Both the position numbers and the translations under genes were made by a program. A stretch of 64,000 nt of DNA from an uncultured Chryseobacterium sp. GTDB lineage: Bacteria; Bacteroidota; Bacteroidia; Flavobacteriales; Weeksellaceae. Numbering within the stretch: the stretch's first letter is position 1; every line of letters starts with the position of its first letter. The stretch is from positions 27,993-91,992 of the forward strand of contig CAJYWN010000008.1 in the NCBI GenBank assembly GCA_913778275.1. Direction: 5' to 3'. Positions 8,894 through 48,022 of this stretch are shown here, piece after piece. The notes under the pieces were generated by a model. It did not search any database and was not told where the DNA came from. It saw nothing but the letters and a program-made list of their open reading frames with translations.

Positions 8894-10360
8894 TTAATCT
8901 TTATTTTTGAATGCTTCTAATGTGCTGTATTTTTCTACCTTATAATGTTTTACGATAATATCGAATATTTTTTCTCTCAGTAAAAACCCGATTAAACCTA
9001 ATATAGCGACACTAATAACGCCGGCTTCAATTCCGAGAGAATATTTTACAATTGCAAACACGGCCATCGGTAAAAACATTTTAGGAATCAGCAGCAGCAG
9101 GGATTTCATATTAAAGCTGTTTTTCTGCCCGAATCTTTTTTCTTTGGCATTCAGGTCGATCTGCATTTTGTTGAATGCTCCGGACCAGAGCGTAAACTGT
9201 GAGTTTACCCCAATATTATAAATTCCTGCAGCAAAAAAGGTAAGGTACATTTCCCACCCGAAATAAGCATAACAGATTGCCAGAATCATTGAAAAGCCGG
9301 TTACAATATTCATGAGCCACCATTTTGCTTTTAAATATTCTTTATACGGAACATTCAGCGTCATCATTAAAGGATAATACGAACTGTCGAAAGCAGGAAC
9401 GCGCTGCCCGAACATAAACTGAAAGCCTCCCGTCACAAACAATCCCATGAACATCATCATAGCCGGGGTTTTATAAATAGGCGAAGAGAACATCAGTAAT
9501 CCGTAAAAGAGAAACAGAAAGCTGCCCCATACAATTCCTTTGGTAACTTTGTTTCGCTTTAGCAGCTTAATATCATTGTTGATAAATGTTCCGATCGCAC
9601 CGTATTTATTCAGGAATGTGATATTTTCCGTTCTTCCAACCTCTTTTTTAGCTTCAAGTCCCTGATCCAGGTAAAATATTTTCCGGATATGGCTGAAGCA
9701 TATCTTCCATAAAGCCAAAAATAAAGTAATTGAAATTACTACGAAATAAGGCCTTTCATAAAAATTAAAGAAAAACTTTTCAGAATAATCCAGAACAGGA
9801 ACAATGTTATAATAGGCTAATGCTGCCACTCCTGCAAAAATACAGCCGAAAACAATGGCAACCATTTCTTTATCGTTGAAAAGAATATTGATAAAATTAT
9901 TGAGATAAAACAACAGTGAAATTCCGATGAGCCAAGCTGCAATACCTAATGCATCATATCCATTGAACAATGCAATAATCGCAAAAGTGATCAGAAACAG
10001 GGAATTAAGCCAGCTGAAAGCAGACAGAAAAGTTTTCCCCATCATATAATTCACCAATGTCTTCTTGGAAATATTAAGTGTGAGAAAAGGCTTGATGTTT
10101 TGGGTGGGTAATTCCTGCCACATGTATTTAACGATAAGATCAACCGCCCAGGCTGCAATCATGAATCTTGAAACCACCTGTACCGGGTTCTGATGCATTT
10201 CTTCCTGAATATAGAAGAATGCACCAAATGCTCCTCCCACCAGACATGCCATAAAATAAAGAATTCCGATAAAGCGAAGAATCTTCATCGCTAGGTTGAT
10301 TCCCAAAGAACTTCCTCGAAAAAAACTTTTGAACTCTAATTTCAGGAATTGTATAAACAT
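8894..10360 (-). CDS. DUF5687-family ABC transporter permease
   Basis: This 488-residue polytopic membrane protein has roughly a dozen hydrophobic segments. It begins MFIQFLKLEFKSFFRGSSLG, the usual opening of the Bacteroidota DUF5687 family, which pairs with ABC ATPases. A cytoplasmic linker sits near residues 225-260 between the two hydrophobic halves. It lies directly upstream of its ATPase with one base between them. What it moves is not known; the internal segment QFMFGQRVPAFDSSYYPLMM is typical of the family. Confidence 0.88.
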   Translation of the reverse strand: MFIQFLKLEFKSFFRGSSLGINLAMKILRFIGILYFMACLVGGAFGAFFYIQEEMHQNPVQVVSRFMIAAWAVDLIVKYMWQELPTQNIKPFLTLNISKKTLVNYMMGKTFLSAFSWLNSLFLITFAIIALFNGYDALGIAAWLIGISLLFYLNNFINILFNDKEMVAIVFGCIFAGVAALAYYNIVPVLDYSEKFFFNFYERPYFVVISITLFLALWKICFSHIRKIFYLDQGLEAKKEVGRTENITFLNKYGAIGTFINNDIKLLKRNKVTKGIVWGSFLFLFYGLLMFSSPIYKTPAMMMFMGLFVTGGFQFMFGQRVPAFDSSYYPLMMTLNVPYKEYLKAKWWLMNIVTGFSMILAICYAYFGWEMYLTFFAAGIYNIGVNSQFTLWSGAFNKMQIDLNAKEKRFGQKNSFNMKSLLLLIPKMFLPMAVFAIVKYSLGIEAGVISVAILGLIGFLLREKIFDIIVKHYKVEKYSTLEAFKNKD

Positions 10361-10670: not shown

Positions 10671-10700
10671 AAAAAAGACCTCTGAAATTCAGAAGTCTTT
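10671..10700 (-). terminator. Terminator after recN
   Basis: On the minus strand a ten-base-pair stem with one mismatch (GACTTCTGAA / TTCAGAGGTC) is followed by six T residues, just past the recN stop. Confidence 0.75.
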
Positions 10701-10711
10701 ATATATTTAAA

Positions 10712-12373
10712 TTAATTCAAATTTATTCCAATTAATTCCTTTGCCTGCGCCAATGCGGCTTCGGTAATTTTGCTTCCTGAAAGAAGCTGGGCTATTTCGT
10801 TGAGTTTTTCTTCATCACTTAAAGGAACAATGGTGGATTGTGTTCTGCCGGCAACATCCTGCTTTACCACTTTATAGTTATTGTTTCCTTTTGCTGCAAC
10901 CTGAGCAAGATGGGAAATGACGATGAGCTGCATATCAGCAGACATTTCACGCATAAGATTTCCGATCTCTTCGGCTACCTTTCCCGAAACTCCGGTATCA
11001 ATTTCATCTAAAATTAAGGTTGGAAGTTCATCACTTTCGGCAATGATCTTCTTCACAGCCAGCATCACTCTTGATCTTTCCCCACCCGAAATGGCGGTCT
11101 GAATCGGTTTTAAAGGAAAACCGGAATTCGCCTGAAACAATAGCTGGATATTTTCTTTCCCGAACTGATTGAAATCTGAAGCCTCCTGTAATTCGATATC
11201 AACCCTGGCTTTTTCAAGGCCTAATTTTTTAAGTAAACCTTCTGCCTTTTGAATGAAAACGGGAATATTTTTTTTCCTGTTTTTTGATAATGTAGCCGAT
11301 AATGCCTGAAGCGTCTTCTCTTTTTTAGCAATATTCGTCTGGATTTCTTCGATATGAGCTTCCAGTTCCGATGCTCCCTGCTGCTCGCCTGACAGCTGAT
11401 CCCTGATCTCTTTTAACCCTGAAACATCTGCAACATTATGCTTTACAAAAAGACTGTTGATTCTGTTATTTAATTCGATCAGTAAAACCAGATTTTCCGG
11501 ATTCACCTCAATCTTTTCCGCTTCATCTTCCAGTTCGGAAATGATATCTTTTAACTCCACGAAAGAAGTTTCCAGCCTTTCATCAAGCTCTGCAAAACTA
11601 TTCGATACTTCCGCTATTTTGGATAGCTTATTTTTAGCTTCATTAAAAAATGACAGAATCCCTACTTCTTCCTGATGAAACCTGGACAATACCTGCGCAA
11701 GGTTATCAGAGATCATTTCTGCATTTTCCTGAATGGAAAGCTGGTTCTGCAGCTCTTCATAATCTACCTCGTCCAGATGAAGTTCTTCAAGCTCATTCAG
11801 GAGAAATGTTTTATAATCACTTTCCTTATTAGCTTCCGAAAGCTGGGTCTGAAGTTTTTTAAGCTGAATTTTAAGACTCTGGAAATCTGAAAATTCATTC
11901 TGGTAATCCTGAATGATCTGTTTGTTTTCAGAAAGCCCGTCAATGATTTTAAACTGATATTCCGCCGTAAAAAGATTAGAAGTTTCAAACTGTGAATGAA
12001 TATCAATCAGTTGAGAAGACAATTCTTTTAAAATATCCAACGTAACGGGAACATCATTAATAAATGCCCGTGACTTTCCTGAAGGTAAAATTTCTCTCCG
12101 GATAATAGTCTGATGCTCATAATCAAGATCGTTTTCTATAAAGAATTTTTTGAACTGATTATTTAAAGAAAATTCGGTTTCAACGATGCTTTTTTCTTCC
12201 GCTTTTGAGATTGATTTTACATCTGCCCTTTCTCCTAGGATCAGTCGCAAAGCACCCAAAATAATAGATTTCCCTGCACCGGTTTCCCCGGTTATTACCT
12301 GCAGACCGTTATGTAAAGATACTTCAAGGGTATCAATAAGGGCAAAATTTTTAATATATATTCTCGAAAGCAT
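10712..12373 (-). CDS. recN: RecN, SMC-like DNA repair ATPase
   Basis: This 553-residue protein has an SMC-like head split by coiled coil. The N-terminal Walker A is GETGAGKS (residues 29-36) after LSRIYIKNFALIDTLEVSL. The middle, about 155-375, is heptad-rich coiled coil. The C-terminal half carries the signature ISGGERSRVMLAVK and Walker B LPTLILDEIDTGVSG. RecN acts early in double-strand break repair by holding DNA ends or sister duplexes. It is the last gene of the DUF4835-recN pair in a conserved flavobacterial cluster with coaBC, rpoZ and bamD. Length is normal. Confidence 0.97.
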   Translation of the reverse strand: MLSRIYIKNFALIDTLEVSLHNGLQVITGETGAGKSIILGALRLILGERADVKSISKAEEKSIVETEFSLNNQFKKFFIENDLDYEHQTIIRREILPSGKSRAFINDVPVTLDILKELSSQLIDIHSQFETSNLFTAEYQFKIIDGLSENKQIIQDYQNEFSDFQSLKIQLKKLQTQLSEANKESDYKTFLLNELEELHLDEVDYEELQNQLSIQENAEMISDNLAQVLSRFHQEEVGILSFFNEAKNKLSKIAEVSNSFAELDERLETSFVELKDIISELEDEAEKIEVNPENLVLLIELNNRINSLFVKHNVADVSGLKEIRDQLSGEQQGASELEAHIEEIQTNIAKKEKTLQALSATLSKNRKKNIPVFIQKAEGLLKKLGLEKARVDIELQEASDFNQFGKENIQLLFQANSGFPLKPIQTAISGGERSRVMLAVKKIIAESDELPTLILDEIDTGVSGKVAEEIGNLMREMSADMQLIVISHLAQVAAKGNNNYKVVKQDVAGRTQSTIVPLSDEEKLNEIAQLLSGSKITEAALAQAKELIGINLN

Positions 12374-38708: not shown

Positions 38709-40193
38709 ATGGAAATAGCAATCAAACTGTTTCAATTTATATTGAGCATTTCTATCCTAGTCCTTCTCCATGAACTTGGGCACTTCTTACCCGCAAAATG
38801 GTTCAAAACCAGAGCAGAAAAATTTTTCCTGTTTTTTGACCCGTGGTTCTCCATTTTTTCAATGAAAAAAATTAACGGAAAATGGGAGTATAAATTTCTT
38901 TCCCAGAACCTTCCGGATACGGAAATCATCGAAGTAAACGGTGAAAAGAAAGAAGTTCCTATTGATATTTCAAAGCTTCCGGATAACGACTGGAGAAAGC
39001 ATCCAGAACAAACGAAATACGGTATTGGGTGGCTTCCTTTCGGCGGATATGTGAAAATTGCAGGAATGGTGGATGAAAGCATGGATATTGAGCAATTGAA
39101 GAAACCTGCGCAACCGTGGGAATTCAGATCGAAGCCGGCATGGCAGAGGCTGATTATCATGCTGGGAGGCGTTACCGTGAATTTTTTTCTGGCGTGGATT
39201 ATCTACACTTGTCTTTCCCTATTTAACGGTGAAACCTATACCGACCTTACGAAATTCGACAGCGGAATCGGGGTAACGGAAGCCGGGAAAAAGATGGGCT
39301 TCCAGAATGGTGATAAAATTGTAAGCATTGACGGAAAACCTGCCGAAAGACTGGAAAACGCTTCCATTAATATTTTACTGGGAGATCATGTAACGGTTCT
39401 CAGAAATGGAAAAGAAACCACTTTCCCGATTAATAAAGACGGTGTTGCAGACGTTCTGAAACAGAAAGAAGCCAGATTATACATCACACCAAGATTTCCG
39501 ATGATCATAGACTCTTTGTCAAGTCCATCGGCAAAAGCTTCCGGGCTGGTGAAAGGTGATAAAGTAATTGCCATCAACGGACAGCCTACGCAATATTTTG
39601 ATGAAGTAGGAACTGTTTTAAATCAGAATAAAGGAAAAACGGTAACCATTGATGTTCTGAGAAACGGTAAACCTGAAACAGTTTCTGCAGCGGTTGACAA
39701 AAATGGGAAACTAGGAATCGCAGTTGACCAGAAAAGTCTTTTAAATGTGGTTACCAATAAAAAATATTCTTTCGGTGAAGCGATTCCACGAGGTTTTGTG
39801 AGAACCATTGAAGCGCTTACCATGCAGGTAAAGCAGTTTAAGATTATGTTTAATTCCAAGATCCAGGGGTATAAAAACGTCGGTGGACCAATTGCCATCG
39901 TCAAAAATATGCCAGTTGACAAAGATGCAAATGGTAATTTTTCCGTGAACTGGGCTGCATTCTGGGGGTTTACGGCCATGTTTTCGGTTTGGTTAGCATT
40001 CCTGAATTTAATTCCGATTCCGGGACTGGATGGCGGCCACGTTCTTTTCACTTTATATGAAATCATTGTTGGAAAACCGGTTCCTCAGAAGGTTCTTGAA
40101 AATGCCCAAATGATCGGTGTCATCTTCCTTTTAGGCCTAATGATCCTGATTTTCGGAAGTGATATATTCAAGATATTTGCAGGGAAATTGTAA
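38709..40193 (+). CDS. rseP: RseP, site-2 intramembrane metalloprotease
   Basis: This 494-residue protein is a four-segment intramembrane zinc protease. The HEXXH motif is HELGH (residues 21-25) in the first helix, and the third zinc ligand lies in NLIPIPGLDGGH (LDGGH at 440-444). Two PDZ-like domains occupy about 205-360, seen in GDKIVSIDGKP and GDKVIAINGQP. RseP cleaves anti-sigma factors or remnant signal peptides. An insert near residues 65-100 is longer than in the 450-residue E. coli enzyme. It lies directly upstream of a tRNA-Asn gene. Confidence 0.95.
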   Translation: MEIAIKLFQFILSISILVLLHELGHFLPAKWFKTRAEKFFLFFDPWFSIFSMKKINGKWEYKFLSQNLPDTEIIEVNGEKKEVPIDISKLPDNDWRKHPEQTKYGIGWLPFGGYVKIAGMVDESMDIEQLKKPAQPWEFRSKPAWQRLIIMLGGVTVNFFLAWIIYTCLSLFNGETYTDLTKFDSGIGVTEAGKKMGFQNGDKIVSIDGKPAERLENASINILLGDHVTVLRNGKETTFPINKDGVADVLKQKEARLYITPRFPMIIDSLSSPSAKASGLVKGDKVIAINGQPTQYFDEVGTVLNQNKGKTVTIDVLRNGKPETVSAAVDKNGKLGIAVDQKSLLNVVTNKKYSFGEAIPRGFVRTIEALTMQVKQFKIMFNSKIQGYKNVGGPIAIVKNMPVDKDANGNFSVNWAAFWGFTAMFSVWLAFLNLIPIPGLDGGHVLFTLYEIIVGKPVPQKVLENAQMIGVIFLLGLMILIFGSDIFKIFAGKL

Positions 40194-40216
40194 GATGTAA
40201 AATTTTTAAAAAAATA

Positions 40217-40248
40217 TTTGCAGGGTATAAATATTCGTCCTATATTTG
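40217..40248 (+). promoter_or_regulatory. Promoter of first tRNA-Asn
   Basis: TTTG at 40217-40220, a 20-base spacer, and TATATTTG at 40241-40248 form a consensus Bacteroidota promoter 22 bases before the tRNA. Confidence 0.75.
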
Positions 40249-40270
40249 CACCACTTAAAACAAAGGACAT

Positions 40271-40344
40271 TCCTCCTTAGCTCAGTTGGTTAGAGCATCT
40301 GACTGTTAATCAGAGGGTCGCTGGTTCGAGCCCAGCAGGAGGAG
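40271..40344 (+). tRNA. tRNA-Asn(GTT), copy 1
   Basis: The 74 bases fold as a full cloverleaf: acceptor TCCTCCT / AGGAGGA, a D arm with AGCTCAGTTGGTTAGAGC, anticodon stem TCTGA / TCAGA around loop CTGTTAA with anticodon GTT at 40305-40307, and T arm GCTGG-TTCGAGC-CCAGC. The discriminator is G and CCA is not fully encoded. A strong promoter precedes it and a hairpin terminator follows. A second identical copy lies 2,851 bases downstream. Confidence 0.97.
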
Positions 40345-40378
40345 CATAAAGACTTACAGAAATGTAGGTCTTTTTTAT
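40344..40378 (+). repeat. 35-base direct repeat, copy A (tRNA 3' end plus terminator)
   Basis: This segment begins at the last base of the tRNA and includes a ten-base-pair hairpin (AAGACTTACA / TGTAGGTCTT with GAAA loop) and a T run, so it is the tRNA terminator. An exact copy lies at 42916-42950, and a near copy follows the second tRNA at 43195-43229. Confidence 0.85.
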
Positions 40379-40521
40379 GTATTCTGATTTAATATTTTTA
40401 GGCATCACCAATGAAAAGAAGTGATAAAATTCGTGGGAACAGGATATTAAAAAATAAAAATTCCATTTTTTAAGAATATAAGTATTTTGTAATAATGTGA
40501 CATTCTGCCGACTATCATTTT

Positions 40522-40529
40522 TATCTTTG
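40522..40529 (+). promoter_or_regulatory. Candidate promoter -7 box of the cassette lipoprotein
   Basis: TATCTTTG is an exact TAnnTTTG match, giving a leader of about 68 bases before ATG 40601. A standard-spaced -33 element was not found. Confidence 0.45.
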
Positions 40530-40600
40530 AAATATTAACTTCAATGATAAATAAAAAGCTAAATAAAACTAATAATCAATAAACATCATTTTAAACATTA

Positions 40601-42253
40601 ATGAGAAATAAATGTATTTTGTGGCTTTCATTGCTGATAGCCTTCAGTACAACTTTTCATTCCTGCAGAACTGATCTTGAAGCAACAGGAAAACACAACG
40701 AAGAAAAATCAGGAGAACATATTCATCAAAAAATCAGTATAGGTACTTTTCAAAAAGAAACTTTTTTGAGCGGAGTTAATGATTTTAAGAAGTCAAATAC
40801 TTCCTTATCTGGCAAAAACAACATAAATTCTAATTACCCAAAAAGATTCTTCATTGATGAGAGTTCTATTTATAAAATGGACGTCAATAATATTCAAACC
40901 TATGCTTTAAGAGCATACAATATTTTTGAAAGTCCAGAAACCGTTTACAATCTTGTGTATAGAAAAAAAGACAATGATGTAGCATTTTCAATTGTTAAGA
41001 TTTTAGATAACGAACTAATTCCTGTATATGATTCTCAGAAAGGTATCGTAACAAAAATAGATAACCCATCAACTGCAAGAACTTGTACAGATTTTTATTC
41101 CGTAGAAATATGGCATTGTAAAGAGGGAGTATCATGGTCACAGTGTGATAAGTGTACTCAATGTCTTTCCACCAGCTCAGGCTACACTTCGTATGAATGC
41201 GGTGGTAACACTGGCGGCGGTGGTAATACTGGTAGCGGTGGGGACGGAGGTGGAGGTTCAGGATTCAATGACCCGAGCGGTTATACCTTCGACCCTAATA
41301 TTCCACCATCAATAGAGCCATCATATGTAAGAGCTGCAAGAGCCAGTAGCTTTTTCTACTCACAAACAGACCTAACAAAATCTTGGGCTGTAGAGCATGC
41401 AGATATGTATTGTACTATTTTAGAATATTATCTTGACAATATCCCGCCTTCATCTCCACCGCCTAACAGTTACTATCAGGATCTTGCCAATTTTGCAATA
41501 CAGGTTTTTATACAGAACCCCGATTTAACTTGGGAACAGTTTTACAATCAGTTCATTAATACTCCTTGCCAAAGTACAAAGGCGATGTTAAACAAACCCA
41601 ATGTAAAACAAGGGATTAATAATGTAAAAGCACAGGCACAACAAACTCTTAGTAATATGAGTGCTGGAGAAACAGGTTTTAAAGAGAAAAAAGATGGAAC
41701 AGTAGTTTCTGCAAATGTAAATTCTGCACACCAAGTTGTTTTCAATGATGCAACAGATGGTTATGGTGGTTATCACAACCATACAGCAACAGGAACGCAT
41801 ATGTTTTCGCCACCTGATATAGAAACATTATTTGGATTTGCTGCAGCTCAAAGCATACAAGATGGAGTAGGTTATGCTTATTTCGGAATGATAGCTGCAG
41901 AATGGTGCAGTACGTGTACTGGTGGAAAAAAAGAAATACATTATGTAATTCGCTATGCAGGAACAGGTTCAGAATTAGCAAATTTTGTATATTCCCCTAC
42001 ACAAATGACACAGCTTATCAAAGACTATCGAAAAACAGCGACCGATTTGATTGATCCATATATAAGTGGAACAACTTATATCAATAGTATAGGAGATCTA
42101 AATGAAAAAGGATTAGAGAAATTATTCTTTAATACATTGCAAAATATGGGACTTACAGGGAAAGTTGTTCTACAGCGAATCGAAAATAGCGGAATTGTAT
42201 ATAATATAACACAAGATAGCACTGGTACAATAACAGCAACACCATGTCCTTAA
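40601..42253 (+). CDS. Cys-rich lipoprotein with C-terminal JAMM-like motif
   Basis: This 550-residue protein has a signal ending near FHSC (Cys22), making it a probable lipoprotein. A polar region of about 140 residues follows, then a cysteine cluster (Cys162, 173, 182, 185, 188, 200) and a glycine-rich linker (201-221). Near the C-terminus His392-x-His394-x8-Ser403-xx-Asp406 (YHNHTATGTHMFSPPD) resembles the JAMM/MPN metalloprotease motif, with one extra residue in the spacer; Glu357 could be the general base. Similar modules occur in large Bacteroidota surface proteins. I cannot name a function. It shares a cassette with a DUF6705-like gene 23 bases downstream. Confidence 0.75.
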   Translation: MRNKCILWLSLLIAFSTTFHSCRTDLEATGKHNEEKSGEHIHQKISIGTFQKETFLSGVNDFKKSNTSLSGKNNINSNYPKRFFIDESSIYKMDVNNIQTYALRAYNIFESPETVYNLVYRKKDNDVAFSIVKILDNELIPVYDSQKGIVTKIDNPSTARTCTDFYSVEIWHCKEGVSWSQCDKCTQCLSTSSGYTSYECGGNTGGGGNTGSGGDGGGGSGFNDPSGYTFDPNIPPSIEPSYVRAARASSFFYSQTDLTKSWAVEHADMYCTILEYYLDNIPPSSPPPNSYYQDLANFAIQVFIQNPDLTWEQFYNQFINTPCQSTKAMLNKPNVKQGINNVKAQAQQTLSNMSAGETGFKEKKDGTVVSANVNSAHQVVFNDATDGYGGYHNHTATGTHMFSPPDIETLFGFAAAQSIQDGVGYAYFGMIAAEWCSTCTGGKKEIHYVIRYAGTGSELANFVYSPTQMTQLIKDYRKTATDLIDPYISGTTYINSIGDLNEKGLEKLFFNTLQNMGLTGKVVLQRIENSGIVYNITQDSTGTITATPCP

Positions 42254-42276
42254 TAATATTAATTTATAAATAAAAT

Positions 42277-42843
42277 ATGAAAACAATATATGTAAAAGCA
42301 TTTATGATATGTTTAATAATTAGCACATTATCTTGTTCTGCACAGACACTTCCTTTAAATACTCCTTTTGCAGATATTCCCAATGGTGCCCATATTAAAG
42401 ATACAAATAATGAGTTAACGCAGTACATAGGAACTTATAAAGCAAATTTTAATGGTAATGAAATTACATTATACATTACTAAACAACAAGATAAGTTGGA
42501 AAATAGCGCCCAGAAAAGTTATTATATGGACGCCTTAATCGTAAAATATATAGTTAAGAACTCTTCCGGAGCAACATTACAAGATACTCAAAATAATAAT
42601 TCAAATATTGAATTTTACAGCTTTAAAATGAGACCAGCCAAGAACGCATTACAGTTTATTTATACTGGCACCAATTGTCATGTTGGATGGGGGGACATTT
42701 ATTTAAAGAAGATAAATGCAAATCAAATCTCTTGGGAATATCGGCCTGATGATATTTCTACTACATTACAAAATTGTCCAAATAATCTTGACACAACAAT
42801 CTATTTACCTGAGACAAAAGATCTGATATTTACAAAACAGTAA
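42277..42843 (+). CDS. DUF6705-like secreted protein
   Basis: This 188-residue protein has a signal peptide (lipoprotein-like TLSCSAQ, Cys20) and the opening LPLNTPFADIPNGAHIKDTNNELTQYIGTYKA (split across 25-56), characteristic of DUF6705, a family frequent in Chryseobacterium and often present in many divergent copies. The rest looks like a beta-sandwich or lipocalin-like fold. A sampled stretch (42421-42480) has 14 G/C of 60, against 28 of 60 in rseP, suggesting a foreign origin. It follows the JAMM-like lipoprotein by 23 bases and may be its partner, which is inference. Confidence 0.75.
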   Translation: MKTIYVKAFMICLIISTLSCSAQTLPLNTPFADIPNGAHIKDTNNELTQYIGTYKANFNGNEITLYITKQQDKLENSAQKSYYMDALIVKYIVKNSSGATLQDTQNNNSNIEFYSFKMRPAKNALQFIYTGTNCHVGWGDIYLKKINANQISWEYRPDDISTTLQNCPNNLDTTIYLPETKDLIFTKQ

Positions 42844-42915
42844 CTTAACACTTTACTAAAGTGACTAATTCTATCAAATACAGGTAAAATTTATCATTCT
42901 CTTAGCTACCGAGAA

Positions 42916-42950
42916 GCATAAAGACTTACAGAAATGTAGGTCTTTTTTAT
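42916..42950 (+). repeat. 35-base direct repeat, copy B (end of cassette)
   Basis: It is identical over 35 bases to the 3' end and terminator of the first tRNA-Asn. Only a few bases before it recall the tRNA acceptor stem, so no tRNA is present here. It can act as the terminator for the two cassette genes. Confidence 0.85.
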
Positions 42951-43067
42951 TTTATCTGTTCTTAAATAATATTATCGGGTGAGATCAATTTAATCTCTTG
43001 AAAAATAATTATATAGCTTACACTGCCCGTTATTAAAGGAAAATTTTTATTATTTTTAAAATAAAAA

Positions 43068-43099
43068 TTTGCTTGATATTAATATTCCTTTTATATTTG
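43068..43099 (+). promoter_or_regulatory. Promoter of second tRNA-Asn
   Basis: TTTG at 43068-43071, a 20-base spacer and TATATTTG at 43092-43099 repeat the arrangement seen before the first tRNA-Asn, including the following GCACCACT. Confidence 0.75.
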
Positions 43100-43121
43100 C
43101 ACCACTAAAATAATAGGAAAT

Positions 43122-43195
43122 TCCTCCTTAGCTCAGTTGGTTAGAGCATCTGACTGTTAATCAGAGGGTCGCTGGTTCGAGCCCAGCAGGAGGAG
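43122..43195 (+). tRNA. tRNA-Asn(GTT), copy 2
   Basis: All 74 bases equal copy 1, with anticodon GTT at 43156-43158. The promoter core and downstream terminator are also close copies, so the transcription unit as a whole was duplicated. Confidence 0.97.
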
Positions 43196-43229
43196 CAAAA
43201 AGACTTACAGTAATGTAGGTCTTTTTTTG
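43195..43229 (+). repeat. Terminator repeat, copy C (after second tRNA-Asn)
   Basis: A near copy of the 35-base repeat with small changes, mainly in the hairpin loop (GTAA for GAAA) and the flanking A and T runs. It terminates the second tRNA gene. Confidence 0.8.
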
Positions 43230-43402
43230 TTTATTCAGCATCCATTACTTTAACAAAATAATAACAACTCCATCACAACACAACCGCGTTATTTCATTAC
43301 ATTTGCAGTTTTGTATTTATTTACTTGAAAAATTAAATATTATTGAATCGTTACAATAAATCTGCATACTTTTTGTTTATGCAATATCTTGAAGAATAAC
43401 AA

Positions 43403-45931
43403 ATGTTAATTAACAGACCGCGATATTATCTTTTTTTCATTTTTGTACTCCTTACCCATTTTGTATATGCTCAAAATGCAGCCAGCGGCAAAATCACAGA
43501 CGCCAAAACCAACAGGGAAATCAGCGGCGTAGACGTTTTTATTAACGAAAATAAAAACCCGGCAATTACGACGACTTCCGGTAATTTCATGGTTCAGTCG
43601 GACAGTATTATTTATAAGCTTAAATTTTTAAGAAAAAATTATTCTTTAGAAACTGTAGATATTACGCCGGAAAACGCTTCCAATATTTTTGTAAAACTTT
43701 CCCAGGAAAAAGAAAGCAATATACAGGAAGTTGTCATTCACAATGAAAAACCGAAGTATAAAAATAAAAAGGAGAATCCAGCTTATGCGATCATGCAGAA
43801 AGTATGGGCCAGAAAAAGAAATAACGGACTGGATAAATTTGACACCTATACCTATAAGGAGTATGAAAAAATTCAGTTTGATGCCAACAACCTGGACAGT
43901 GCCTTCATGAAGAAAAAAATCTTTAATAAACTTGAATTTATTTTCGACTATAAAGACTCCACCGCAAGCGGAAAAATAGGACTACCCGTATTTCTGAACG
44001 AAGCCGTGTACGAAAACTACGGAGAGAACAGACCTTCCAAAAGGACCAAAAGACTTTTAGTCGCACAAAAAACATCCGGATTTCAGGACAACCAGATTGT
44101 AACGCTTACCGCCAAGAACCTTTACCGGGATATTAATATTTACGACAATACATTAAATTATTTCGACATTGGATTTCCGAGCCCAGTGGGAGAAACGGGT
44201 TTCAGTACATACGATTATAATTTAGTGGATACGATTTCCATCCGTGGAGAAAATGCTTTCAAGATCAGGTATCTTCCGAAGAGAACGGAAGTTCTGGCCT
44301 TTCAGGGATATTTGTATATCGATACGGACAGCTATGCGGTGTTGGGCGCTACTTTAAAATCAACCCAGAAAATCAATGTAAATTTCATCAATGGGATTTC
44401 TACCGAACTGGAGTATGACAATCCTGACGAAAACACCTTTTTACCCAGAAAATTTGTTACCGAAATTGAAATGACGCCGTTTTCCAAGAAGAAGACTGCC
44501 AAAAGTATTGTTGCCAAACGGTCGGTAGATTATTCTGAATACGAATTTAATAAGCCTCTGGAAGATGAAGTTTTTAAACGAAAAGAAGAAGAATATGCAG
44601 ATGCTTTCACTGATAAGGATGATGCTTACTGGCTTAAAGCCAGACCCGATTCTTTATCCAAAACCGAACAGGGAATCTATGAAATGCTTGACAAGCTTCA
44701 GCAGACTCCAAAATTCAATAGAATTGTAAAGCTTTATGAAACGTTGGGTTCCGGCTATTATAATGTAAAAAAATTAGGCATTGATATCGGTCCGATTTTC
44801 TCTGTTTACGGTAAAAATGACGTGGAAGGAGACAGGATACGACTTGGCGCCAGAACGTATTTCACAAGAAATGATCCGTGGAGAGTACAGTTTTATACGG
44901 CTTATGGTTTTAAAGATCAGCAGGTAAAATACGGTGCTGAAGCAAGATTCATGTTCAACAGGGTTAACAGGTTTACCGTAGGAGCCGGAACAAGAAGGGA
45001 CATTCTACAGCTGGGAGTACAATTGACGAATGATGATGGAATCATGGCCAGAACGTTTGCTTCGTCAACCATTTTTGCAAGAGGAGAAAATGCCTCTTTA
45101 AGCTCAGTTAATCAAACAAATGTTTTCACTTCCATCGAACCCTGGAAGAACTTCCAGATCAGGCTTGACGGCACAATGCAAAGCATTAAATCTGCCAATC
45201 CGGACGGTTTCAGCCTGATGTATTACAAAGACGGTGCTTTAAGAAAAACAACAAACGATTCGCACTTTACACTAAGCCTGATCGCAAGACCGGGCGCTAA
45301 ATTCTCCCAAACAGGAATCGACCGTTATGAACATGGAACATTGGCTCCGACCATCGTGTTAAAATACACGAAAGGAATTGAAGGGTTATTCGGATCAGAC
45401 TTTAATTATAACAAACTGCAGTTCCTATTCTACAAGCCGTTCTTAGTCGGGAGCTGGGGAAAACTGCAGGTTAATTTCGAAGCCGGAAAGAACTTCGACA
45501 CCGTTCCTCTGGCATTGCAGAACATAATCCCCGGAAACCAGTCGTACAGTCTTGCACAGAATACATTTGCACAGCTGAATTATTACGAATTTGTAGCGGA
45601 TACGTATACAACCCTTCATTTGGAGCATCATTTTAACGGTAAAATTCTTTCTTTCATCCCATTAATTAAGAAACTAAAATTAAGGGAAATTGCTTTTATA
45701 AGAGGTGCTTACGGAACATTGAGCGATGCTTCGAAAGCGATCAACGTAGAAGGATTCAAATATTCTGCACCGAGCGATCATATTTACTATGAATACGGTT
45801 TTGGAATCGAAAATATTGGTTTTGGAAATCTGAGAATTTTCAGGGTAGATTTTAACTGGCGCGGAAATTACCTCGACCGTCCAGACATTTCTACTTTCGG
45901 TATAAAAGCCGGATTCCAGGTGAACTTCTAA
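43403..45931 (+). CDS. DUF5686-family outer-membrane protein with carboxypeptidase-like N-terminal domain
   Basis: This 842-residue protein has a signal peptide (cut near AQ at 23-24), then a CarboxypepD-regulatory-like beta-sandwich of about 80 residues (ASGKITDAKTNREISGVDVFI), a helical/linker part with KKENPAYAIMQKVWARK, and a long C-terminal beta-barrel region ending FGIKAGFQVNF with a terminal aromatic as in outer-membrane proteins. This matches DUF5686, a Bacteroidota family of unknown function that resembles TonB-dependent receptors without a plug domain. It follows the second tRNA-Asn. Confidence 0.88.
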   Translation: MLINRPRYYLFFIFVLLTHFVYAQNAASGKITDAKTNREISGVDVFINENKNPAITTTSGNFMVQSDSIIYKLKFLRKNYSLETVDITPENASNIFVKLSQEKESNIQEVVIHNEKPKYKNKKENPAYAIMQKVWARKRNNGLDKFDTYTYKEYEKIQFDANNLDSAFMKKKIFNKLEFIFDYKDSTASGKIGLPVFLNEAVYENYGENRPSKRTKRLLVAQKTSGFQDNQIVTLTAKNLYRDINIYDNTLNYFDIGFPSPVGETGFSTYDYNLVDTISIRGENAFKIRYLPKRTEVLAFQGYLYIDTDSYAVLGATLKSTQKINVNFINGISTELEYDNPDENTFLPRKFVTEIEMTPFSKKKTAKSIVAKRSVDYSEYEFNKPLEDEVFKRKEEEYADAFTDKDDAYWLKARPDSLSKTEQGIYEMLDKLQQTPKFNRIVKLYETLGSGYYNVKKLGIDIGPIFSVYGKNDVEGDRIRLGARTYFTRNDPWRVQFYTAYGFKDQQVKYGAEARFMFNRVNRFTVGAGTRRDILQLGVQLTNDDGIMARTFASSTIFARGENASLSSVNQTNVFTSIEPWKNFQIRLDGTMQSIKSANPDGFSLMYYKDGALRKTTNDSHFTLSLIARPGAKFSQTGIDRYEHGTLAPTIVLKYTKGIEGLFGSDFNYNKLQFLFYKPFLVGSWGKLQVNFEAGKNFDTVPLALQNIIPGNQSYSLAQNTFAQLNYYEFVADTYTTLHLEHHFNGKILSFIPLIKKLKLREIAFIRGAYGTLSDASKAINVEGFKYSAPSDHIYYEYGFGIENIGFGNLRIFRVDFNWRGNYLDRPDISTFGIKAGFQVNF

Positions 45932-45970: not shown

Positions 45971-46156
45971 TTAAGACTCTGCAGGATAATCTTTACAGCC
46001 GTTACAATGTGCCACAATATACACAATGTTGCATGGCGGCCTCTCTCCCTCAGGGATACTGCAATAAATATTGCATGGCAAACATTCTTTTACAGGAGCG
46101 ACACCTCCTGTTACTTCTTTAAGATCCTGTCTTGTGATTTTCTTTAGATTTTTCAT
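45971..46156 (-). CDS. Bacteriocin-like Cys-rich peptide with GG-type leader
   Basis: This 61-residue peptide starts MKNLKKITRQDLKEVTGG, a double-glycine-type leader (Gly17-Gly18), followed by a Cys-rich core with seven cysteines (VKECLPCNIYC..., then PPCN, HCNGC). This leader form marks the 'bacteriocin-like' peptides that are numerous in Chryseobacterium. No C39-peptidase exporter, lanthipeptide synthetase or immunity gene is nearby. A related leader occurs at 63.6 kb. Whether it is an antimicrobial, a signal or something else is unknown. Confidence 0.75.
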   Translation of the reverse strand: MKNLKKITRQDLKEVTGGVAPVKECLPCNIYCSIPEGERPPCNIVYIVAHCNGCKDYPAES

Positions 46157-47134: not shown

Positions 47135-48022
47135 ATGAAAAGAAACTTTAATTTCCGTATCCTTGCGGGAGCAATTGCTGCACTCTCCTTATCAGCATGT
47201 AACGACGAATCACTGGAAACTCCTGTACAGCCTGAACAACAAACAGAAAGCCAAAAAATCGAACAGCCTGATGCGCTTGAAAAAGTGTGCTACTATGTAG
47301 ACCAAAACTGGAGCTCTTCTGCTGTTTTACTTACGAATCTACAAAATTCCACGGACACGAATTTTATGAATTCGCAAATGACAAAAATTGCCAGCCTTTG
47401 GGGAAGGAGCAATCCTACGCTTCGTTTTGTAAACGATCCTTCCAACTATAACTCTACGTACAACGCAATCTCCTACTCTTCCGGAAAAATTTATTACGGC
47501 TACGCGATTTACTATGATGCCAAATCAAAAGGCGGAAACATTGTTAATGCCATGATCTTAGCCCACGAATATGGCCACCAATTGCAATACATCTTCGGAC
47601 TTCCTTCTGTTTACGAATCTACGGCAAGACCCAACGAACTGGAAGCAGACGGATTTGCCGGATATTATTTAAGGAGACCGAACGGTTACAACCAGACTAG
47701 TTTTACACAAATCGCAGCGGCGTATGAGTTTGCACAAAGCATTGGAGATTATCAGACCACCAGTCCGGGCCATCACGGAACTCCTCCGCAGAGAAGATCA
47801 GCCGTACGTTTAGGATTCCTTTTAGGACAGTACGATCTCTCAGCTGCTGATTTTGATTACAATTTCTTTTATTATTATCAGGGAGTTTTGAACGGAACAT
47901 ACAAAACCGCCAAAAACTCCCGTTTTCCGGAGCTCGACGCGTTTATGAGCCAGTATCTTGATGAATTAAAGAAAATTCAGACGGGAGAAATCTCTGCTGA
48001 AGAATTCAAAAGGTTAAAATAA
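47135..48022 (+). CDS. Zinc metallopeptidase lipoprotein (YpfJ-like)
   Basis: This 295-residue protein has a lipoprotein signal with SLSACND (Cys22). Its HEXXH motif is AHEYGHQLQ (His144, Glu145, His148), followed 20 residues on by NELEADGFAGYYLRR, which supplies the third ligand Glu. This pattern fits the neutral zinc metallopeptidase family PF04228. The following HHGTPPQRRSAVRLGFLLGQYD segment is also family-like. It should act in the periplasm or at the outer membrane. Substrates are unknown. Confidence 0.85.
   Translation: MKRNFNFRILAGAIAALSLSACNDESLETPVQPEQQTESQKIEQPDALEKVCYYVDQNWSSSAVLLTNLQNSTDTNFMNSQMTKIASLWGRSNPTLRFVNDPSNYNSTYNAISYSSGKIYYGYAIYYDAKSKGGNIVNAMILAHEYGHQLQYIFGLPSVYESTARPNELEADGFAGYYLRRPNGYNQTSFTQIAAAYEFAQSIGDYQTTSPGHHGTPPQRRSAVRLGFLLGQYDLSAADFDYNFFYYYQGVLNGTYKTAKNSRFPELDAFMSQYLDELKKIQTGEISAEEFKRLK

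Follow-up and report, generated by a model that had tools for sequence, protein, structure and literature searches.

An integrase-less islet at the 3′ end of a tRNA-Asn gene in Chryseobacterium carries a putative toxin-immunity module

Introduction

Elements that lack an integrase and retain both attL and attR have been described as cis-mobilizable elements (CIMEs; PMC5704250), and fifteen ssrA islands without an integration module are known from Dehalococcoides (PMC3146451). In Chryseobacterium, the integrative and conjugative elements (ICEs) ICECspPOL2 (PMC8694125) and ICECleSHZ29 (PMC12561888) reside in tRNA-Glu-TTC and tRNA-Met-CAT. We describe an islet of 2.57 kb at the 3′ end of the first of two tRNA-Asn genes in an uncultured Chryseobacterium sp.; it lies in the window, the whole 64-kb stretch of DNA that was analysed, and all coordinates without a locus prefix are window positions. 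With moderate confidence, we regard it as an integrase-less, CIME-like tRNA-Asn islet that carries a toxin-immunity module and that probably arrived via a tyrosine integrase.

Like the CIMEs (PMC5704250) and the Dehalococcoides ssrA islands (PMC3146451), the window islet consists of cargo only, is flanked by attL/attR-like repeats and occupies an RNA gene that is shared with integrase-bearing elements. Its direct repeats derive from an RNA-gene 3′ end, relatives show an empty site with a single copy of the repeat, it encodes neither an integrase nor transfer genes, and integrase elements use the same site, all of which are features of the CIME type; it does not have the integrase of its own that characterizes an integrative and mobilizable element. 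Unlike the CIMEs and ssrA islands, it is very small, its cargo is toxin-immunity-like, its repeat is mostly terminator, and its mobility is putative. The two Chryseobacterium ICEs belong to the same genus and have likewise entered tRNA 3′ ends, where they leave direct repeats of 17-18 bp, whereas they are conjugative, 75-116 kb long and found in other tRNAs. In a library of open-licence papers, we found no paper linking Chryseobacterium and tRNA-Asn and none on DUF6705, the family of one of the two cargo proteins. The islet is a real, well-bounded further case of a known element type, and the assignment of its cargo is modestly new.

Results and discussion

The islet (40379-42914) lies between two copies of an exact 36-base repeat. 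The left, attL-like copy (40343-40378, + strand) comprises the final three bases of the first tRNA-Asn(GTT) gene (40271-40345, +; ARAGORN), which is the insertion target, together with its terminator; the right, attR-like copy (42915-42950, +) has the same sequence without a tRNA. When extended, the copies agree at 39/40 bases, with one mismatch, and their start-to-start distance is 2572 bp. A preliminary description of this DNA had correctly recognized two tRNA-Asn units, the second of which, also tRNA-Asn(GTT), spans 43122-43196 (+), and an exact repeat, which it gave as 35 bases beginning with the last tRNA base; the repeat is in fact 36 bases long and takes in the last three. Its predicted fold is that of a strong intrinsic terminator (hairpin −12.4 kcal/mol, z −5.4). 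Within the 64 kb, the 36-mer occurs on the + strand in two places only, as the left and right repeats, and the 29-base terminator core, with up to five substitutions allowed, occurs only in both repeats and in the terminator of tRNA-Asn copy 2 (43199-43227, +; one mismatch in 29), with no match on the other strand. Over 174 bp, the two units formed by promoter, tRNA and terminator are 90% alike, and a terminator repeat behind two tRNA-Asn genes is normal here; the unusual feature is the third terminator copy, which has no tRNA.

Two genes in the same direction, P1 (40601-42253, +) and P2 (42277-42843, +), fill 40601-42843 of the insert. Three integrase queries detected no integrase in the window, which bears out the earlier claim that none is present. 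The guanine-cytosine (GC) content is 35.9% for the P1 gene, 30.0% for the P2 gene and 32.8% for the whole insert, against 40.8% for the upstream rseP gene and 39.1% for the downstream DUF5686 gene. The cassette had been called AT-richer than rseP, and this direction holds, with the 60-base samples used for that claim overstating the mean difference. A small predicted hairpin (TTCTC...GAGAA; 42897-42915, +) is located at the right inner end of the islet.

We collected 80 loci, nearly all labelled Chryseobacterium, around the DUF5686/carboxypeptidase-regulatory-like gene (43403-45931, +; Pfam PF18939, E 3.3e-61), which served as the right conserved anchor; the left anchor was the rseP-type M50 protease gene (38709-40193, +; Pfam PF02163, E 9.9e-49), represented by protein P0004. 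In the four closest loci (L001, L002, L003 and L021), the DUF5686 protein is 94-96% identical to that of the window, and 6.6 kb of flanking DNA shares 88% identity with both C. cheonjiense (L002) and C. takakiae (L001). The order in C. cheonjiense is rseP, tRNA-Asn, a single repeat copy, spacer, tRNA-Asn and DUF5686, with the cassette absent. Its alignment covers window positions 40200-40398 on the left and runs uninterrupted over 42911-43396 on the right (89% identity), passing through one repeat copy. The cassette and one repeat copy are therefore the added part, and the right repeat of the window continues into the original spacer, which also holds the promoter of tRNA-Asn 2 (42951-43121). 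Empty sites with a single repeat copy, from which the islet is missing, also occur in L003, L021 and others. The cassette is thus an insert at the 3′ end of tRNA-Asn 1: the closest relatives carry a single copy of the repeat in place of the window's two, in support of the earlier proposal of a tRNA 3′-end insertion with att-like repeats, and the eye-catching repeat can now be read as an insertion whose empty site has been sequenced.

The tRNA-Asn pair itself is older than the islet. Our comparable set comprised 52 loci, namely the window and the 51 of the 80 loci whose DNA reaches both anchors; the remaining 29 fall short of rseP, often due to a contig end, and their available upstream DNA contains one tRNA-Asn (12 loci) or none (17 loci). 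All 52 have the order rseP, tRNA-Asn, tRNA-Asn, DUF5686, and ten are empty, with a tRNA spacing of 215-295 bp and at most 308 bp to DUF5686. Since both tRNAs are present throughout, including in these ten cassette-free loci, the second tRNA brackets the islet by position only and is uninformative on the route by which the cassette entered. The pair had been viewed as a possible product of the insertion, with an expected empty site of rseP, one tRNA-Asn and DUF5686; no such site was seen among the 52, in which the empty site has two tRNAs. An old tandem tRNA duplication with later gene gain does hold as a sequence of events. The pair may not be present throughout the genus: in the genomes of L037 and L052, the two best tRNA-Asn matches fall on different contigs, and L053 has tRNA-Leu/Gly/Leu upstream of the DUF5686 gene instead.

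The right repeat could alternatively be the tail of a third tandem tRNA-Asn unit that has decayed, with the genes between having arrived by other means. Decayed third tRNA-Asn-like units do occur in L047 and L054 (71% and 78% over unit positions 7-106/108). Against such an origin in the window, the nearest relatives have only two tRNAs, and there is no tRNA body or promoter beyond chance left of the right repeat, which begins 71 bp 3′ of P2. The tRNA likeness of these 71 bp (42844-42914) is no better than that of mononucleotide shuffles; among 2000 shuffles, 1485 scored as high for the tRNA 5′ part, 1896 for the anticodon-to-acceptor part and 1121 for the tRNA promoter. We consider a decayed third unit very improbable. 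The right end has the look of a shortened tRNA (TTCTC-TTAGCT...GAGAAGC), which we dropped as a candidate because shuffles score equally; by the same result, an eroded tRNA half at this end is unsupported.

The tRNA-Asn pair is an insertion hotspot in the genus. Extra DNA is present behind one or both tRNAs in 42/52 comparable loci, the window included: between the tRNAs only in 17 (among them the window), behind the second only in 10, and in both places in 15, as defined by thresholds of 360 and 400 bp. In other species, tRNA-Asn 3′ fragments without 5′ halves are found at the far end of inserts; they begin at the anticodon loop in L011, L019, L023 and L042 and are shorter or eroded elsewhere. 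A search of 14 whole genomes revealed large inserts at these tRNAs, including four elements with a tyrosine integrase approximately 0.1-0.2 kb from a tRNA-Asn or fragment, and all four integrases match Pfam PF00589 (Phage_integrase). In L163 (genome G013; 9792 bp, repeat 59/62), a 401-amino-acid integrase adjoins tRNA-Asn 1, which is the same place as the window islet, and L160 (G079; 14159 bp, repeat 47/54) also encodes a 401-amino-acid integrase. The integrases of L159 (G068) and L166 (G033) adjoin a tRNA-Asn 3′ half; the fragment lies 18.6 kb behind the first tRNA in L159, whereas in L166 it shares a contig with two tRNA-Asn genes and lies 129 kb and 180 kb behind them. On this contig (L023; G033 contig C3, 39748-219743), the two tRNA-Asn genes are 51 kb apart, a layout that suggests very large integrative elements at the hotspot. 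A 24.7-kb stretch of G079 (L161 and L162) had no match to the three integrase queries.

Besides these large elements, we identified seven short bounded islets of 1.0-5.7 kb, counting that of the window, which have clear repeats and no integrase detectable with three query integrases, open reading frame (ORF) lists and Pfam scans of some ORFs. Contig-end cuts (e.g., L001, L011, L012 and L017) and strongly decayed remnants (L047, L049 and L054) were excluded. The window islet (2572 bp, repeat 39/40, P1-P2) stands beside L164 (994 bp, repeat 72/74) and L042 (1451 bp, repeat 95/99), for whose cargo our analyses gave no identity; L057 (about 2.1-2.4 kb, repeat 49/56), with AraC-type and SnoaL-like genes; L071 (2901 bp, repeat 40/48), with an AraC/TPR-type gene; L165 (3152 bp, repeat 55/57); and L072 of C. 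culicis (5654 bp, repeat 79/86), with a P1-P2 array behind tRNA-Asn. The idea that such islets mainly carry toxins found no support, as the cargo of L057 and L071 consists of regulator or enzyme genes. In L165, a Peptidase_C39-like domain ends a 789-amino-acid protein, followed by an 84-amino-acid gene (L165:2071-4702); by its layout, this cargo would be toxin-immunity-like.

We propose that incoming DNA that held P1-P2 together with a tRNA-Asn end recombined at the 3′ end/terminator of tRNA-Asn 1, which would have left this tRNA whole with one, attL-like repeat copy and placed the other, attR-like copy behind the cargo. The likeliest agent would be a tyrosine integrase such as those that the larger elements encode at this tRNA-Asn pair in other species; it would have acted either in trans or from a part of the element that has since been lost. 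Such an integrase, or homologous recombination, may account for the entry of the islet, with both the recombinase and any remaining mobility of the islet being putative. Since the repeat is limited to the last tRNA bases and the terminator, and the DNA before its right copy shows no tRNA likeness, the evidence does not distinguish a crossover at terminator level from an eroded att site or from homologous recombination. Kinship of the islet ends to the four integrase elements was not apparent, the best matches there being short (36-47 bp, E 0.005 or worse); among 12 chosen loci, none matched the right end. Among the matches listed, a noncoding islet end has a 55-bp match to L138 (E 1.2e-5).

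Homologous recombination would require no site-specific recombinase: DNA taken up by transformation or conjugation could have crossed over through near-identical tRNA-Asn units or terminators, if the donor stretch already held the cassette between such copies. The tRNA-terminator unit of 106-108 bp is highly similar within as well as between species: complete units are 82-99% identical to the first unit of the window, and most are 93-99% identical. The islet has no integrase and its repeat stops at the terminator rather than the anticodon loop, which also favours this route, as does L027, where a P1-P2 pair that aligns with that of the window at 78% sits behind tRNA 2 and the DNA upstream of the P1 homologue resembles the left islet end (68% over 133 bp, E 2.7e-6). 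However, recombination through whole units predicts a third tRNA and promoter, complete or decayed, and the DNA before the right repeat has no detectable trace of either; integrase elements with clear repeats are moreover established at the same tRNAs. We judge homologous recombination unlikely.

If a tyrosine integrase was responsible, the islet could be what is left of an integrase-bearing element that entered tRNA-Asn 1 and lost its integrase and transfer genes by deletion, so that cargo and the two ends alone persisted, a sub-case of the integrase reading that overlaps with it in probability. Full-size elements sit at the same tRNAs, and decay to CIMEs has been described in other genera (PMC5704250). 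Against decay, the repeat copies are 36/36 identical, no integrase trace was found, and L042, L164 and L165 are equally compact with repeats of 96-97%. We regard a decayed element as possible, if somewhat unlikely. A wider reading is that integrase-free islets of 1-6 kb on tRNA-Asn 3′ ends would form a satellite-like class in the genus that rides in trans on the integrases of larger elements, with varied cargo (toxin-immunity-like in three of the seven islets, namely the window, L072 and L165) and a terminator that would double as att core and operon terminator; we put this forward tentatively, as rather unlikely. Of the options in the preliminary description, a remnant and a passively mobilised island are both possible. 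Compact islets without a detected integrase beside integrase elements at the same two tRNAs offer a natural system for the question of trans-mobilisation.

P1 is a predicted 550-amino-acid lipoprotein with a lipobox cysteine at residue 22, a glycine-rich linker and a JAMM/JAB-like C-terminal domain (about residues 320-550), and P2 is a predicted 188-amino-acid lipoprotein of the DUF6705 family (PF20448). P1 residues E357, H392, H394 and D406 are invariant and S403 is present in 50/52 sequences, so that the JAB/JAMM metal motif E ... HxH ... S..D is present with the spacing HxH-x8-S. This is one residue longer than in the JAMM motif, HxHx7Sx2D. The six best Foldseek matches of P1 are chains of BRCC36-KIAA0157 (JAMM/MPN) complexes (E 3.8e-3 to 9.9e-3), and a JAMM fold is possible. 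P1 had no RHS match and no other Pfam match. When P2 and 34 relatives were scanned against Pfam, 29/35 matched DUF6705; Imm65 was absent from the matches, the existence of an Imm65 model in the Pfam copy being unchecked.

DUF6705 genes are linked to the P1 C-terminal domain. We examined 40 P1-homologous loci, hand-picked from the upper part of the match list with several skipped and some genomes represented twice; DUF6705 genes accompany 37/37 loci with the C-terminal domain (in one, L120, the match stops at P1 residue 410) and 0/3 with the N-terminal part alone. A polymorphic toxin with an immunity protein would be expected to show this pattern. The homologues have differing N-terminal parts fused to the conserved C-terminal domain, and C-terminal fragments and multiple DUF6705 copies also occur; exchangeable N-terminal parts and a putative immunity gene tied to the C-terminal domain are features of polymorphic toxins. 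As an extreme array of putative immunity genes, eight DUF6705-like matches lie in a row behind a P1 relative in L119 (8999-14294).

The closest described counterparts are Tox-JAB-1 and Tox-JAB-2, which like P1 have a JAB-type C-terminal domain with E, HxH, S and D, and Imm65, the partner of Tox-JAB-1, which like P2 has a signal peptide and lipobox (PMC3482391). P1 differs from both toxins by having no RHS match and an HNH with eight residues before S, while P2 differs from Imm65 by matching DUF6705, with no Imm65 match reported. P1 is probably a lipoprotein of the cell surface or periplasm that bears a toxin domain of the JAB type, and P2 its lipoprotein immunity partner; the C-terminal domain would be toxic and P2 would protect against it. 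DUF6705 thereby gains a testable role, as the immunity protein of a JAB-type toxin. The cargo might instead have another function, such as that of a peptidase at the surface and a lipoprotein that assists it. JAMM folds are also known in housekeeping peptidases, P1 toxicity is a sequence-based reading, and both proteins are lipoprotein-like, which is unusual for a delivered toxin. The varied N-terminal parts, C-terminal fragments and multiple DUF6705 copies, the linkage of DUF6705 to the C-terminal domain, and the precedent of a lipobox immunity protein with a JAB toxin (Imm65/Tox-JAB-1; PMC3482391) argue against this alternative, which we regard as doubtful.

P1-P2 also occurs in L127, on a 12.6-kb segment that is bounded by a tRNA-Ser 3′-end repeat (18/19) and contains a PF00589 integrase (E 3.2e-7); together with the array in L072, this shows that integrative elements do carry such cargo. 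P1 is not a general tRNA traveller, as 35/40 P1-family loci have no tRNA or tmRNA in the stretch collected. We found no confirmed match to P1 in viral contigs and none in plasmids, no P2 in phage records, and no viral contig with a 27-base pattern spanning the right junction. Between the cargo modules of L127, an 88-nucleotide repeat with complementary ends (GATTTTAGCC...GGCTAAAATC) is present three times (L127:6745-6832, 9331-9418 and 10673-10760). At E 1e-3, it was found in no other collected locus except L098, which spans the same place, and its copies are possibly cassette borders or regulatory hairpins.

The displaced terminator of the right repeat may now end the P1-P2 transcript, a use by the cargo operon that we infer. 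A sequence resembling the tRNA-Asn terminator follows the stop codon of the long gene of the hotspot (cluster 0; 1000-1090-amino-acid class, 903 amino acids in L059) in 7/21 loci (L026, L059, L061, L065, L066, L070 and L074), against 1/1050 mononucleotide shuffles, which do not preserve terminator hairpins, and some of the matches resemble ordinary terminators of the genus. That old displaced repeats have been kept as gene terminators at the hotspot is only suggestive.

Two further ORFs lie downstream of the DUF5686 gene in the window. One on the − strand (45971-46156) predicts 61 amino acids that include several cysteines and a leader of the double-glycine type (...KEVTGG), and may encode a small secreted peptide or the precursor of a bacteriocin. 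The other (47135-48022, +) predicts a lipoprotein-like product of 295 amino acids with an HEYGHQ metalloprotease-type motif.

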